DNA of 64,000 nucleotides from Desulfovibrio aminophilus DSM 12254 (lineage in GTDB: Bacteria; Desulfobacterota; Desulfovibrionia; Desulfovibrionales; Desulfovibrionaceae), in assembly GCF_000422565.1 (NCBI RefSeq), contig NZ_AUMA01000007.1:62001-126000 (forward strand). Direction: 5' to 3'. Positions 10,628-16,702 of this stretch are shown piece after piece (position 1 is the first letter of the stretch; each line of letters opens with the position of its first letter). The position numbers were made by a program, and so were the translations under genes. Below the pieces are notes generated by a model. It made no database searches and had not been told where the DNA came from. It saw only the letters and a program-made list of their open reading frames with translations.

Positions 10628-10670
10628 ATCCAAAAAGAAAGGCTCCCGGAGGAGCCTTTCTTTTTGGATT
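10628..10670. terminator. Bidirectional intrinsic terminator between argC and the HesB-like genes
   Basis: A palindrome of about 19 bp per arm (ATCCAAAAAGAAAGGCTCC, loop CGGA, then its complement) gives A-tracts and T-tracts on both sides. It serves argC on the plus strand and the GRE/HesB operon on the minus strand. Confidence 0.9.
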
Positions 10671-10681
10671 TCGTCCCAACC

Positions 10682-10981
10682 TCACGCGGGTGGCTGCAGC
10701 GCGGTCAGAACAGTCTGCTTGTTCTCATCAAGGGTCAGCATGTAGGACTTGCCGTGCTTCAGCAGGAAGTCCTTTTCCGCGATGAACGGGACGCCGTCGA
10801 CGTCGATCCGTTCATCCTCGCCCTCCACGGCTTCCTCAAGACCCAGACCAAGCATGATCTTGCTGTGGCAGCCGCAGCCGGCCTTGTACTCACGCAGGCG
10901 CACGCAGGCGTCTTCTTCCTCGTCACTCAGCATGTTCCTGAGTTTCTTGAGAATTTCTTCAGTCGTTTCGACCGAGAACAT
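10682..10981 (-). CDS. HesB/IscA-like iron-sulfur protein, cysteine form
   Basis: 99 aa. The motif EYKAGCGCHSKIMLGLGLEE (Cys36 and Cys38, with Cys26 upstream) is a HesB/IscA-like core of the ErpA/IscA type involved in Fe-S cluster carriage. ATG at 10981 has GGAGGAACG-type spacing; a longer frame to 11107 has no support. It is the last gene of the GRE operon, 149 nt after its selenocysteine paralog. The two are about three quarters identical in protein and nearly identical over long DNA stretches, so it is a tandem duplicate. Around codon 38 it keeps the GGTCT loop sequence of the paralog's SECIS but not a full stem. Probably cytoplasmic; its partner may be the nearby activase. Confidence 0.8.
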   Translation of the reverse strand: MFSVETTEEILKKLRNMLSDEEEDACVRLREYKAGCGCHSKIMLGLGLEEAVEGEDERIDVDGVPFIAEKDFLLKHGKSYMLTLDENKQTVLTALQPPA

Positions 10982-11130: not shown

Positions 11131-11427
11131 CTATGGCGCGGCGGTAGCGTTCAAAACGGTCTGCTTGTTCTCATCAAAGGTCAGCGTGTAGGACTTGCCG
11201 TACTTCAGCAGAAAGTCCTTTTCCGCGATGAACGGGACGCCGTCGACGTCGATCCGTTCATCCTCGTCCTCATCGGCTTCTTCCATGCCCAGACCGAGCA
11301 CGATCTTGCTGTGTCACCCACCGCCTACCTTGTACTCGCGAAGGCGCACACAGGTGCCTTCGTCCTCGTCCGCCAGCATCTCGCGGAGCTTTTCGAGGAT
11401 TTCATCCGTTGTTTCCAGTGTGAACAT
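11131..11427 (-). CDS. HesB/IscA-like selenoprotein (in-frame TGA at codon 38)
   Basis: 98 codons plus stop, if TGA at 11314-11316 is read as selenocysteine. Upstream of TGA the product is a HesB-like N-terminus ending EYKVGGG; downstream the frame continues HSKIVLGLGMEE to a TAG at 11131-11133 with no other break. The tandem paralog has Cys at exactly this residue, and its other motif cysteine (Cys36) is Gly here. A SECIS-like hairpin follows the TGA. The ATG at 11427 has GGAGG 4 nt upstream and lies 20 nt after the activase gene. HesB-like selenoproteins are a known class in selenium-using anaerobes. A standard gene caller would give a 37-codon fragment. Confidence 0.8.
11283..11316 (-). 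promoter_or_regulatory. Candidate bacterial SECIS element directing Sec insertion
   Basis: On the mRNA, UGA is followed by 18 nt, then the loop GGUCU, flanked by UCGUGCUC and GGGCAUGG, which pair over 8 bp (with G-U pairs). A U stands at position 14 after the UGA. From memory, the E. coli fdhF SECIS has the same 18-nt spacing, the same GGUCU loop and the same U, the bulged base read by SelB. The match is hard to explain by chance. Confidence 0.75.
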
Positions 11428-11447: not shown

Positions 11448-12344
11448 TTAAACGATGACGGGCTTGAGCCCATATCTTCCAAAGCGCTCCTCGACCGCCC
11501 TGAGCTCCTCGGGGGTATACTGGCGCAGAGGCGGCATGGACAGGTTGAGCGCGAGGTATTTGTTTCTTCCGAAGAAATGGCACGGCATGATCTCGATCTC
11601 GTGACGGTGGAATTCGCCAAAGAAGTCGGCCATCGCCGCGAGATTTTCCTCCGTGTCGTTCAATCCCGGCATGAGGGGCATGCGGATGCGCACCTTGGTG
11701 TCGGAGCTCAAGGCGTTCCGCATGTTCTTCAATATGAGCGCGTTGCCCTGTCCGGTCAGGGCCTTGTGACGTTCGGGGTCCATGTGCTTGCAGTCGAAGA
11801 GCAGCAGATCGGCCAGCCTGATCGTTTCGCTGAAGCGGTCTTCCGGGCAGCAGCCGCAGGTGTCCACAGTGCAGTGGTAGGCCTCGTCATGCGCCTGTTG
11901 CAGCAGGGCGAGGAAAAAATCCCCGCCGGCCGTCGGTTCTCCGCCTCCGAACGTCACGCCCCCGTCGGAATTGAGGTAGAAGAGTTCATCCTTGCGGACG
12001 ACCTCCATGACTTCCTCCACGGTCATGATCTTGCCGGACATGACCCGGGCCTGGCGGGGGCAGACTTCCGTACAGACGCCGCAGTCGGTACATTTTTCCG
12101 GATCGCGCCCGAACTTGCCGTTTTCAAGAAGCACGACCGCGCCGTTGGGACAGGCATTGGCGCACGCGCCGCAGCCCGTGCAGAGATTCTCGAAGTACAT
12201 CATCTGCGGCGCGAACTTCTGCGACTCGGGATTGCTGCACCAGATGCAGTGCAGGGGGCAACCCTTGAGAAAGACAGTCGTCCGCAGGCCGGGGCCGTCC
12301 TGCACCGACATCCGTTGAATATTGTATACCATTCCCTCTTGCAT
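11448..12344 (-). CDS. Glycyl radical enzyme activating protein (radical SAM)
   Basis: 298 aa. The radical SAM motif is CPLHCIWC (C29, C33, C36), as in GRE activases. Two ferredoxin-type clusters follow: C55, C58, C61, C65 and C85, C88, C91, C95. This two-cluster insert is typical of activases for non-pyruvate-formate-lyase GREs. GGGEP and later barrel motifs are present. It abstracts hydrogen from the glycine of the partner GRE. The ATG at 12344 (GGAG about 9 nt upstream) fits the family start; the ORF itself extends to 12431. It lies 91 nt after the GRE gene, with a strong hairpin between, and 20 nt before the selenoprotein gene. Confidence 0.93.
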   Translation of the reverse strand: MQEGMVYNIQRMSVQDGPGLRTTVFLKGCPLHCIWCSNPESQKFAPQMMYFENLCTGCGACANACPNGAVVLLENGKFGRDPEKCTDCGVCTEVCPRQARVMSGKIMTVEEVMEVVRKDELFYLNSDGGVTFGGGEPTAGGDFFLALLQQAHDEAYHCTVDTCGCCPEDRFSETIRLADLLLFDCKHMDPERHKALTGQGNALILKNMRNALSSDTKVRIRMPLMPGLNDTEENLAAMADFFGEFHRHEIEIMPCHFFGRNKYLALNLSMPPLRQYTPEELRAVEERFGRYGLKPVIV

Positions 12345-12386
12345 GGTCAGGAACTCCGAGTCGATTTGATGAGGCGGGAACCAAAG

Positions 12387-12424
12387 AAGGGGGACGCCGC
12401 GGCAGCGGCAACGGCGTCCCCCTT
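12387..12424 (-). other. Hairpin between the GRE and activase genes
   Basis: Thirteen-base perfect arms AAGGGGGACGCCG / CGGCGTCCCCCTT enclose a 12-nt loop just after the GRE stop codon. On the minus strand it is followed by CTTTGG, a poor U-tract. It may be a leaky terminator or an RNA-stability hairpin that keeps GRE message more abundant than activase message. Confidence 0.65.
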
Positions 12425-12435
12425 GGGGCATAGGG

Positions 12436-14937
12436 TCAGTTGGCCTGCGCGTATTCCGTGCGCTTCACGATTTCGTCCTGTACGCCCTTGTCGAGGCGGG
12501 TGAAGTAGGCGCTGAAGCCCGCCACGCGGACCACGAGATTCTTGTAGTCCTGCGGGACTTCCTGGGCCTTCTTCAGGGTGGCGGAGGTCACGACGTTGAA
12601 CTGGATGTGCGATCCGCCGAAGTCGCAGTAGGTCTTGATGAGCGAAGTCAGCAGGCGCGTTCCGGCGGGGCCCTCGAGAGCCGCGGGCACCAGCTTCACG
12701 TTGAAGTGGTTCGCGCCGTAACGAACCGTGTCGATGGCCTGGGCGCCGGACTTGATGAGGGCGGTGATGCCCTCATGGTCGGTGCCGGGCATGGCGGAGA
12801 CGGAACCGTCGGTGAGCGCGACGCCCGCCTTGCGTCCGGTCGGCAGGGCGCCCATGAGCGCGCCGAAGTAGTTGTGGTACGAGAGGGAGTAGGCGTCCAG
12901 CGGCGTGCGGTAGCCGAAGCAGTCCGGACCGATGGAGTTGTGGATCTCGTCCACGTCGCGGTAGTACTGCTGAACGAAGGCTTCGGTTTCGGGGTAGTCG
13001 TTGCCGTGTTTGGGCGCCTCGTAACACATCCTGCGGATGTCCTCGAAACCTTCGAAGTTGGCCTTGATGGCCTCCATGAGCTGGGCCATCGTGATCTTCT
13101 TGGTGTCGAACACGAGGTGCTTGATGGCCAGCAGGGAGTTGGCCGCGTCGACGCCGGCGGTCATGATCGGGTTGACCTGCGGGTAGCGGGTGCCGCCCGC
13201 CTCTTCGCACTTCCCCTTGTCGATGCAGCCGTCGTACATGACCGAGCGGAGCACGCTGGGCACCACCTGCAGGCGCGCCATCTGGGACAGGTCGGAGTGC
13301 TTGCGGGAGATGCCGAAGAGGTGCTTCAGCTGCTTCTTGTAGGCCTCGTAGACCTCATCGAAGCTCTTGAACTCGGTGAATTCGCCGGTTTCGATTCCGA
13401 GCTGCTTCTTGGTGGTCGGATCCGTGCCGTTGTACATCACCATTTCGATGATCTTCGCGAGGCACGGCTGGTCTTCCTGGGTGATGAAGCTGCCCTTGCC
13501 GCAGATGCCCGTGGACACGCAGCCGTAGTTGCCGCAGTTGCGGGCGTCTTCCAGGGTGATGCCGCCTTCATACTGGGCGAAGCGGGCGAGGGTGCGCTGG
13601 ATCACGACGTTGTTGTTGAGGATCTGGGGCTGTCCCGAACCGCCGCGGATGCATTGCACGACCTTGCTCATGTAAGCATCCGACATCTTGGGATGATAGA
13701 GCAGCGTCAGCGTGGGCTGGATGCCGCGCACCTGGATCTGTGTTTCGAGCAGGAGTTCCTCCAGCTCGGTGCTGGCGTCGTTGCCGTCCTTGTCCACGCC
13801 GCCGATCGTGATGGTCTGGCCGGTGTGGCCGGAGAGGGTCTTGGCGTAGGAGCCGCCCTGATACTCACCCAGCTCCATGTGCTTGATCCACTGCATCTTG
13901 AGGAGGGCGACAACCTGTTCGCGGCTGAGCTTTCCTTCGTCGAGGTCCTTCTTGTAGAAGGGATACATATACTGGCCGTAGCGGCCCGGGGAGGTGGCGC
14001 AGGCCATTTGTTCGGTCTCGATGCACAGATGCATGAACCAGAAGGACTGGACGGCCTCACGGAAGTTGCGCGCCGGGAACTCGGGAACGCGGCGGCAGAT
14101 TTCCGCGATTTCGAGCAGCTCGGCCTTGGTCTTCGGGTCGGTTTCCGTCTCGGCGGTCTTTTCCACCAGTTCGGCGTAGCGGTGGGAATGGGCGACCACG
14201 GCCTCGCAGACCACGATCATGGCGCGGTAAAGATCGAAGCGCTCCTTGTCGTCGAGGGTGGTGGGGCAGTTGCGCAGACGATCCTTCAGGTCGTCGATGA
14301 TTGCGCGCATTCCCTCATTCAGCGCCCTGGGGTAGTCGGCGATGCCGGAGCCGCTCGCGACGCTGACGTTCTCGTAGTACATGCCCCCCTTGTGGTAGGC
14401 GGAGGGGTTGAAGCCGAACATGTCCTTGAACATCTTGTTGTTCAAGTCGATGCAGGTGCGGCCCTTCCATTCCTTGTAAGTCTGCTGGAGAAGCTCCTCG
14501 GTTTCCTGCGGGATCTTCATTTCGCCGAGAGAGGCCATCTTGGCCATCTGCATCTCGTCCTTGATCCACTGCACGTTCCACTCGGGATACGGGAGCACGC
14601 CGCAGCGGGCGCTGGTGAGGGTGCCGACGATGGGGTTGCCGTCGAGAAAGATCTTCTTCTTGAGGAGCACGCGCTCAAGCAGCTTGGCGCGAATGTAGAC
14701 GACCGGCTCCCCCGCGAATTCCTTGTATACGTCGTGCAGGTGCTGAAGGCGCTCGGCGTCCATGACCTGAGGCGCGTTCATCAGGAACTCCATCTGTTCC
14801 TTGAAGCGCGAATTCATGGTCTCCCAGTTGAGCTTGTATTCCTTTGGTCCCGTCGCCACCTTGTTCATGTCGAACGTCATGTTCGCCACTTCTTCGATGG
14901 CTTGCTTCTTGGAGCTGGAGAAAGGAAGCGTCGTCAT
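12436..14937 (-). CDS. Glycyl radical enzyme, substrate unassigned (4-hydroxyphenylacetate decarboxylase-like clade)
   Basis: 833 aa. The radical glycine is in VVRVAGFSAYF, and the thiyl cysteine is in GNYGCVSTG (Gly809 and Cys475, counted from the ATG at 14943). The C-terminal block NVVTSATLKKAQ...RVAGFSAYFTRL...QDEIVKRTEY resembles HPAD-type enzymes. HPAD, CutC and glycerol dehydratase have Glu two residues after the Cys, but here it is Ser, so those reactions are not supported. No HPAD small subunit is adjacent. ATG at 14937 is chosen because GGAGG lies 7 nt upstream; ATG 14943 is almost on top of it. Driven by a sigma-54 promoter and co-transcribed with the activase and two HesB-like genes. 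An APC permease nearby suggests an amino-acid-like or small organic acid substrate. Confidence 0.9.
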   Translation of the reverse strand: MTTLPFSSSKKQAIEEVANMTFDMNKVATGPKEYKLNWETMNSRFKEQMEFLMNAPQVMDAERLQHLHDVYKEFAGEPVVYIRAKLLERVLLKKKIFLDGNPIVGTLTSARCGVLPYPEWNVQWIKDEMQMAKMASLGEMKIPQETEELLQQTYKEWKGRTCIDLNNKMFKDMFGFNPSAYHKGGMYYENVSVASGSGIADYPRALNEGMRAIIDDLKDRLRNCPTTLDDKERFDLYRAMIVVCEAVVAHSHRYAELVEKTAETETDPKTKAELLEIAEICRRVPEFPARNFREAVQSFWFMHLCIETEQMACATSPGRYGQYMYPFYKKDLDEGKLSREQVVALLKMQWIKHMELGEYQGGSYAKTLSGHTGQTITIGGVDKDGNDASTELEELLLETQIQVRGIQPTLTLLYHPKMSDAYMSKVVQCIRGGSGQPQILNNNVVIQRTLARFAQYEGGITLEDARNCGNYGCVSTGICGKGSFITQEDQPCLAKIIEMVMYNGTDPTTKKQLGIETGEFTEFKSFDEVYEAYKKQLKHLFGISRKHSDLSQMARLQVVPSVLRSVMYDGCIDKGKCEEAGGTRYPQVNPIMTAGVDAANSLLAIKHLVFDTKKITMAQLMEAIKANFEGFEDIRRMCYEAPKHGNDYPETEAFVQQYYRDVDEIHNSIGPDCFGYRTPLDAYSLSYHNYFGALMGALPTGRKAGVALTDGSVSAMPGTDHEGITALIKSGAQAIDTVRYGANHFNVKLVPAALEGPAGTRLLTSLIKTYCDFGGSHIQFNVVTSATLKKAQEVPQDYKNLVVRVAGFSAYFTRLDKGVQDEIVKRTEYAQAN

Positions 14938-14992
14938 GGTCATTCCTCCCGATTGGCAAGTGGTGCGATTATGTCCGCCAGCTCGTGGCGCT

Positions 14993-15202: not shown

Positions 15203-16702
15203 TCAATACACGTCGTCTATTTCCAGCGTCTTGATCCTGTAGCGCAGGCCGGCCGCCGTCATTTCGAGGATGCGGGCCGCCTTGGCCACGTTGCCGCCGG
15301 TCACGCGCAGAACGTTCGTGATGCAGCGGCGTTCATATGCGTTCAAGCAGTTCTTGAGCGCGATGACCTCGGTGCGTTTTACGTCGCTGTAATCGTAATA
15401 CTCGTTCGCGGGCGCTTCCGGGAGAGCTTGGGCCGTCACGGACCCCTTGGCCGCAAGGCCGAGATTGCGCCCATATTCACGTTTCGCCTCAAGGAAATGC
15501 TGCGGTAGGCAGGCTTGTTCGATAATGCCCGATGGCCCCACCATGATCATTGAGCACTCGACCACGTGCGCGAGTTCACGAATGTTGCCCGGCCAGTCGT
15601 ATTCCTTGAAAAGCTGAAGCACTTCCGGAGAGAATTCCACCTGTTCGTACTTGGAGCGCAGATCCGAGGCCTCCACGAAGGAGCGGACCAGCATCGGAAT
15701 GTCGTCCTTGCGTTCGCGCAGGGGCAGGATCTCCAGGCCGACAACGGCCAGTCGATAATAAAGATCCCGGCGCAGGATGCCGCGTTCCACGGCCTGCAGC
15801 GGCGGCTCGTTGAGGATGCTGATGATCCGCACATCCACCGGAATTTCCGTGAAGGAGCCGAGACGTCGCACACGTTTTTCCTGCAACACCCGCAAGAGCT
15901 TGGCCTGCAATGCCAACGGCATGGAGTTCAGCTCGTCGAGCAGGATGGTGCCGCCGTCGGCCTTTTCGAAAAGGCCGGGCTTGTCGTTTGCGTCGGTGTA
16001 GGATCCCTTGACCGTTCCGAACAGGATGCACTCCAGCAGATTTTCCGGAATCGCCGCGCAGTTCACCGGGATGAACGGTCTGTCGCGCCGGTCGCTTTCC
16101 GTATGGATGGCCTGGGCGAAAACCTCCTTGCCGACGCCCGATTCGCCCCAGATCATCACCGAGGAAGCGGTTCCCGCGGCGACCCTGGAGGCGTCGACGA
16201 CCGCGCGCAGTTTTTCATCGCGGCCCACGATGCTGTCGAAGGTGTAAAGGCTCGGGGCGCTGACGCTGGAGAGCGGGGATTTCGCCTTCTTCCCGGAGTC
16301 GCCGAACATGGCCGGCCCGAGCCAGATGATGAAGGCGATGCATCCGTCCTTCTTGCCCCGATCGAAAAGAGGAAAGAAATCCGTGACCGTGCTGGCCAGA
16401 TAGTTTTTGGTGGTTTTGTACCAGTAGGCCCGCTTCAGGAGGGGTTCGCCCTTCTGCAGGCACTCCATGGTGGGGATCAGGTCGCGCTCGTGAGGAAGAT
16501 AGAGGCTGGTGATGTGCCGACCGATCACATTGATTTCTGTGAACCCGTCGGTGCGGCGCTGGATGGGATTCATGTATTCGCAGATGCCCTTGGCGTTCAC
16601 GACGGCGACACCGACGGCCATGGAGTCCCACAGGGCCTGCATTTCCTGGGTCAGGACGCTTGCGCGGCTGACATTGTGGAATTTGCGGATGTCGAAATCC
16701 AT
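15203..16702 (-). CDS. Sigma-54-dependent transcriptional activator (PAS - AAA+ - Fis HTH)
   Basis: 499 aa. Residues about 20-125 form a PAS-like sensor. The AAA+ domain has Walker A GESGVGKE (186-193), Walker B GGTILLDE (250-257) and RRDLYYRL, and a Fis-type HTH (GGNVAKAARILEMTAAGLRYRI) ends the protein. No receiver domain, so it is probably triggered by a ligand or partner binding the PAS region. The sigma-54 contact loop, normally GAFTGA, reads GSYTDA here (233-238), an unusual Gly-to-Asp change. It precedes the GRE operon on the same strand and most likely controls the sigma-54 promoter at 15026-15044. GAGGGGG precedes the ATG. Confidence 0.92.
   Translation of the reverse strand: MDFDIRKFHNVSRASVLTQEMQALWDSMAVGVAVVNAKGICEYMNPIQRRTDGFTEINVIGRHITSLYLPHERDLIPTMECLQKGEPLLKRAYWYKTTKNYLASTVTDFFPLFDRGKKDGCIAFIIWLGPAMFGDSGKKAKSPLSSVSAPSLYTFDSIVGRDEKLRAVVDASRVAAGTASSVMIWGESGVGKEVFAQAIHTESDRRDRPFIPVNCAAIPENLLECILFGTVKGSYTDANDKPGLFEKADGGTILLDELNSMPLALQAKLLRVLQEKRVRRLGSFTEIPVDVRIISILNEPPLQAVERGILRRDLYYRLAVVGLEILPLRERKDDIPMLVRSFVEASDLRSKYEQVEFSPEVLQLFKEYDWPGNIRELAHVVECSMIMVGPSGIIEQACLPQHFLEAKREYGRNLGLAAKGSVTAQALPEAPANEYYDYSDVKRTEVIALKNCLNAYERRCITNVLRVTGGNVAKAARILEMTAAGLRYRIKTLEIDDVY

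Follow-up and report, generated by a model that had tools for sequence, protein, structure and literature searches.

Selenoproteins of the HesB/IscA-like kind have been listed since the mid-2000s. Their function has been described as unclear (PMC11097638; PMC13188914), and the motif published for the HesB-like selenoprotein is UxGP (PMC13188914). From D. vulgaris, a HesB-family gene that contains a TGA has been reported as DVU_1382 (PMC1914089; see also Zhang 2006, PMC1794560). The locus considered here lies in a stretch of 64,000 nucleotides from Desulfovibrio aminophilus DSM 12254 (the window), where a gene on the minus strand at 11131..11427 encodes an ErpA-related protein of 98 aa, belonging to NCBIfam NF033940, with a predicted selenocysteine (Sec) at residue 38 (U38). 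Its association with a glycyl radical enzyme (GRE), a radical enzyme sensitive to oxygen, suggests a possible job for a group of selenium proteins about which little is understood.

The reading frame extends from an ATG at 11427 to a TAG at 11133-11131, a total of 98 codons, and contains a single internal stop, the TGA at 11316-11314 (11314..11316, minus strand). A tandem paralog of 99 aa, also a member of NF033940, is encoded on the same strand at 10682..10981 and has Cys at position 38, where the codon is TGC. The two proteins share 78% identity over 98 aa, and it extends to either side of the TGA. The preliminary description had reported a frame that meets one TGA at the place of the paralog's Cys38 and then stays open, flanked by identity on either side, and re-reading of the DNA gave identical coordinates. 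The in-frame UGA aligns with the conserved Cys of homologs, which is one of the features by which selenoproteins are recognised. On the 3' side of the Cys paralog, between it and the convergent argC, there is a near-perfect inverted repeat (10628..10669, no strand assigned) that is a probable bidirectional terminator; Rfam matches named as miRNAs at these positions were rejected in favour of a terminator-like hairpin. A sigma-70 promoter scan returned one site, against 1.2 expected, and a search for the -24/-12 pattern of sigma-54 promoters gave matches at chance level only, and no promoter is claimed from either.

The host genome (3.42 Mb, 99.98% complete) encodes the machinery for Sec insertion. 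A selA gene was found at 603 bits, with selB (652 residues, 365.9 bits) close to it, and selD was found at 317 bits in a Sec-type form with one in-frame TGA of its own, within the motif G-U-A-A-K. The tRNA-Sec (selC) scored 79.5 bits, and ARAGORN concurs with an anticodon of UCA. These are the four genes that the preliminary description had proposed to look for in the complete genome, and their presence means that refutation of the Sec reading through absent machinery fails.

Conservation of the TGA was examined with the NF033940 profile across 199 genomes of the host family, at the curated cut-off of 65 bits; this genome-wide search was far more productive than a contig scan with the lone protein as query, which found only three relatives. 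The profile detected 49 genes in 32 of the 199 genomes, and a copy with exactly one TGA was present in 26 of these 32. The TGA is confined to one alignment column, shared by at least 23 distinct homologs, in the context G-G-G-U, or rarely G-S-G-U or G-C-A-U, and the remaining copies have TGC or TGT at this column. That the TGA recurs at a single column across many genomes excludes a sequencing error. Moreover, the frame downstream of the TGA has a median dN/dS of about 0.18 (less saturated pairs only), which indicates purifying selection on the sequence beyond it. Among the TGA-bearing genomes, selA was detected in 24 of 26; the two in which it was not found, a point against the Sec reading, are fragmented assemblies that are 84% (G091) and 96% (G173) complete. 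No selA match was obtained, either, in three genomes of a single genus that carry Cys copies only (G056, G106 and G130).

A bacterial selenocysteine insertion sequence (SECIS) hairpin can be read on the minus strand at 11283..11303, beginning 11 nt after the UGA. The order on the 3' side of the UGA is CACAGCAAGA UCGUGCUC GGUCU GGGCAUGG, in which UCGUGCUC and GGGCAUGG can form a stem of eight pairs, three of them G-U, around the loop GGUCU; the loop stands 18 nt from the UGA and there is a U at +14. The spacing, loop, stem length and U at 14 that had been proposed from the letters were thus all recovered in the DNA. In the folding of single sequences, the minimum for positions +1 to +42 after the UGA includes exactly this hairpin (-9.9 kcal/mol), whereas the minimum of a 51-nt segment with the UGA included lacks it and does not improve on shuffled sequences (z -0.19), and for this reason comparative evidence was relied on. 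Neither at its gathering thresholds nor with permissive E-values did Rfam recognise a SECIS or any other RNA family at the site.

The comparative evidence shows that the hairpin is conserved far beyond chance. RNAalifold, when given 22 distinct gap-free Sec homologs and no structure, found the same helix de novo, and 96.6% of the cells of the eight-pair helix over the homolog alignment hold standard pairs. Two pairs are changed on both sides, with eight compensatory cells, and the covariation score of 0.191, compared with 0.103 in shuffles, was reached in none of 500 shuffles. Shuffling ignores relatedness, so that slid registers of the helix and the Cys copies are better controls. The slid registers were only 26-51% paired. 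All 20 main-clade Sec copies have CTC GGT CTG as codons 6-8 counted from the Sec codon, whereas in eight Cys copies the modal codon accounts for 50, 50 and 38% of sequences; these nucleotides are thus held beyond the need of the protein only where Sec is encoded. A hairpin shortly downstream of the UGA, with a G in its apical loop and conserved by covariation, is a further feature by which selenoproteins are recognised.

The TGA could instead be an ordinary stop, leaving a pseudogene or a truncated product of 37 residues, and the adjoining intact Cys paralog, together with a local fold that is no better than shuffles when the UGA is included, would be compatible with this. Nevertheless, such a stop is hard to reconcile with a TGA fixed at one column across many genera, with SECIS nucleotides kept beyond amino-acid need and with purifying selection on the downstream sequence, and in many genomes the TGA copy is the sole NF033940 copy found; we regard an ordinary stop as scarcely credible. 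The Sec machinery, the column-fixed TGA, the covarying SECIS, the codon constraint and the downstream selection all support the insertion of Sec first suggested in the preliminary description, and UGA 38 of 11131-11427 is, on this genomic evidence, almost certainly read as Sec. Ordinary stop-codon calling would truncate or miss such a gene.

The family placement of the protein is distinct from that of the described selenoproteins. On the NF033940 (ErpA_rel) model the Sec and Cys copies score 151.9 and 145.6 bits (cut-off 65), and on NF038090 (IscA_HesB_Se) they score 27.5 and 28.3 bits (cut-off 85). The HesB-like selenoprotein model TIGR01911 gave no match to either copy at E<1, and where that family has UxGP the window Sec protein has UHSK. 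The designation of the gene as a HesB/IscA-like selenoprotein therefore holds for its IscA/HesB-like fold and does not extend to the published HesB-like family. A canonical HesB-like UAGP selenoprotein is encoded elsewhere in the host genome (L075:495-851; G000:C5 81494-81850) with a Cys tandem paralog beside it, and both have a Gly/Cys-rich tail; this U-A-G-P/C-S-G-P pair scores 113.8 and 107 bits on NF038090. The host therefore has two different Sec/Cys tandem pairs of the IscA/HesB superfamily, one in each family. Of the 199 host-family genomes, 180 have a match above the NF038090 cut-off, compared with 32 for NF033940. It could still be argued that the window gene is simply the known Desulfovibrio HesB-like selenoprotein of the DVU_1382 type, since the superfamily, the replaced Cys position and the Sec/Cys tandem arrangement are held in common. 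This is very improbable given the profile scores, the presence of a separate UxGP protein in the same genome and the finding of a GRE near none of 12 NF038090 loci, the distinction being drawn by HMM models and not against DVU_1382 itself. By sequence, the window gene belongs to a subfamily separate from the published HesB-like selenoproteins, the kind of selenoprotein itself being known.

The genes preceding the Sec gene on the minus strand encode a GRE of the PFL2/dehydratase superfamily (12436..14943) and a GRE activase (11448..12431; TIGR02494, 348 bits), in the order GRE, activase, Sec gene, with the activase ending 20 nt before the last. This link was not noticed in the preliminary description, of which the Sec reading was retained and the family placement refined to NF033940. 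The activase has motifs for one radical-SAM cluster and two ferredoxin-type clusters, and it is one of two GRE activases over the cut-off in the host genome. Upstream of the GRE is a sigma-54-type activator (15203..16702, minus strand), homologs of which are found near the GRE in most extended loci.

The association extends throughout the host family. In each of the 30 NF033940 loci sampled there, the GRE and/or activase was no more than about 1.5 kb away; 12 NF038090 loci, taken as a control, had neither nearby. With the GRE as query, it was detected in 33 of the 199 genomes, namely all 32 with NF033940 and one other (G094); the resulting contrast, 32 of 32 genomes with NF033940 and 1 of 167 without, has a Fisher p of 3e-36 that is inflated by relatedness, and the co-occurrence spans 15 genera. 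Moreover, 43 of the 49 NF033940 genes lie no more than 3.5 kb from this GRE on the same contig. Five of the other six have no GRE match on their contig, in assemblies that are broken there (G153, G126 and G091), and the sixth, a second Cys copy carried by G036, adjoins another GRE-like gene and is separated from the GRE by 8 kb. Outside the host family, a Sec/Cys pair stands beside a GRE in G212, and that GRE is 53% identical to the one in the window. The stronger proposition, an NF033940-type partner for each GRE of the wider clade, was rejected, as the GRE of G094 and the second GRE of G106 are accompanied by an activase with no partner detected; both are distant relatives of the window GRE, and they count against the partnership role. 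Judged from gene neighbourhoods, NF033940 is a near-exclusive partner of one GRE clade and its activase. No relevant paper emerged from literature searches on NF033940, or on ErpA or A-type carriers in connection with GRE and selenium, and no earlier description of the strict GRE partnership was found in the mostly non-subscription literature covered.

The window GRE falls below every NCBIfam equivalog cut-off, so that no equivalog could be assigned, and it may represent an uncharacterised GRE type. After its putative active-site Cys comes V-S; the corresponding residues are V-E in trans-4-hydroxyproline and glycerol dehydratases and M-S in benzylsuccinate synthase. The neighbours of GRE homologs (L089:7627-8941, L081:8102-8629 and other extended loci) include an amino-acid permease, a sigma-54 activator, a TauE/SafE-type exporter and DUF4125, and in some extended loci a C_GCAxxG_C_C redox protein; these recurrent neighbours may hint at the GRE substrate. 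The host also has a second GRE operon (G000:C15; L096:1092-1370), in which a different A-type-like Cys protein, ending CCKK, is encoded between GRE and activase.

An AlphaFold2 model of the Sec protein (pLDDT 88.5, from an alignment of five sequences) was matched by Foldseek and VIA-align to IscA, SufA and DsrR with Z of about 9-11, which places it in the A-type fold. The top VIA-align match is DsrR of Allochromatium vinosum (2k4z), with Z 11.0 over 92 residues at 21% identity. Residue 38 is in the loop after the second strand and corresponds to the first conserved Cys of IscA-type proteins in an alignment to HI1723. The protein thus has an A-type scaffold, yet it lacks the defining feature of canonical A-type carriers, the set of three conserved Cys that includes a C-terminal CxC: the CxC is absent from all 47 NF033940 members examined (26 Sec and 21 Cys copies). 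Cluster binding by the Sec protein is consequently only putative. Some Sec copies have no Cys at all, so that, together with the missing CxC, a redox pair of Se and S within the molecule is unlikely to be the general mechanism; the only chalcogen residue that every Sec copy shares is Sec38.

These observations can be brought together in a model in which the hairpin shortly downstream of UGA 38 would direct SelB and Sec-tRNA to insert Sec at that codon, in a gene presumed to be cotranscribed with the GRE. The Sec protein and its Cys twin may then deliver, hold, guard or repair the oxygen-sensitive [4Fe-4S] clusters of the activase through Sec38, perhaps acting at a dimer interface as in IscA, and the Cys paralog could be a second copy, partner or backup that works independently of selenium or is tuned differently. 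As a whole, an A-type-fold selenoprotein serving the Fe-S clusters of the GRE activase, with the Cys twin as second copy, is the explanation that we favour by a small measure; for the exact role of dedicated Fe-S helper to the activase, alongside the Cys paralog, the chances appear evenly balanced. The near-constant presence of an Fe-S-rich activase as neighbour argues for the helper role, and the absence of the C-terminal CxC argues against it. The broader proposal, that a GRE system possesses its own selenium-dependent maturation or repair factor in the form of a single-Sec A-type-like protein that loads or re-loads activase clusters, together with a Cys twin, is put forward tentatively, at slightly under even chances.

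The chief competing explanation is that the GRE-operon selenoprotein does not carry Fe-S clusters and that Sec38 has another role, whether in redox or protective partnership with the GRE or activase, in sulfur or metal handling, or in a cluster-free protein resembling DsrR. The loss of CxC in every member examined, the top match to DsrR and the recurrence of TauE and DUF4125 genes nearby, with a redox protein in some loci, are all consistent with this, while the fold, the coincidence of Sec with the first conserved Cys of IscA-type proteins and the invariable Fe-S-rich neighbour are less easily accommodated; about one chance in three seems a reasonable estimate for it. The Fe-S helper role, if true, would provide a function for a Sec-containing member of the IscA/HesB superfamily, and no established function for such a member was found. 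In addition, a specific and near-exclusive partner makes it possible to ask by a defined experiment what Sec does in a fold of the Fe-S carrier type.

The relationship between Sec and Cys copies has been changeable, the Sec/Cys state having altered several times within NF033940. Of 13 tandem arrangements of Sec and Cys copies, 12 begin with the Sec copy, and the labels on the gene tree imply about seven changes, a rough figure based on few columns, indicating repeated duplication, replacement or conversion. In the window, a 54-nt stretch downstream of the SECIS (11213..11266, minus strand) is identical to 10767-10820 of the Cys paralog, and the third positions of the two copies are identical at 40 of 46 in codons 51-96, compared with 19 of 37 before the Sec codon. 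From these sequences, a recent gene conversion restricted to the region downstream of the SECIS is probable.

Compared with the known systems, the HesB-like selenoproteins (TIGR01911/NF038090) resemble the window protein in their IscA/HesB superfamily, in Sec at the first conserved Cys and in Sec/Cys tandem pairs, and differ in having UxGP where the window protein has GGGUH, in their HMM family and in the lack of a GRE beside them. The A-type carriers IscA, SufA and ErpA share the fold (Z 9-11) and the position of the first conserved Cys, whereas the window protein is without the C-terminal CxC, has Sec for Cys and has a dedicated genomic partner. DsrR belongs to the dsr sulfur-oxidation operon; it is the closest match in fold (2k4z), but at 21% identity and in an operon other than that of a GRE. 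Both window copies are members of NF033940 ErpA_rel, a family whose name, ErpA-related iron-sulfur cluster insertion protein, and whose description refer to neither selenium nor a GRE, and both of these are shown here for many of its members.
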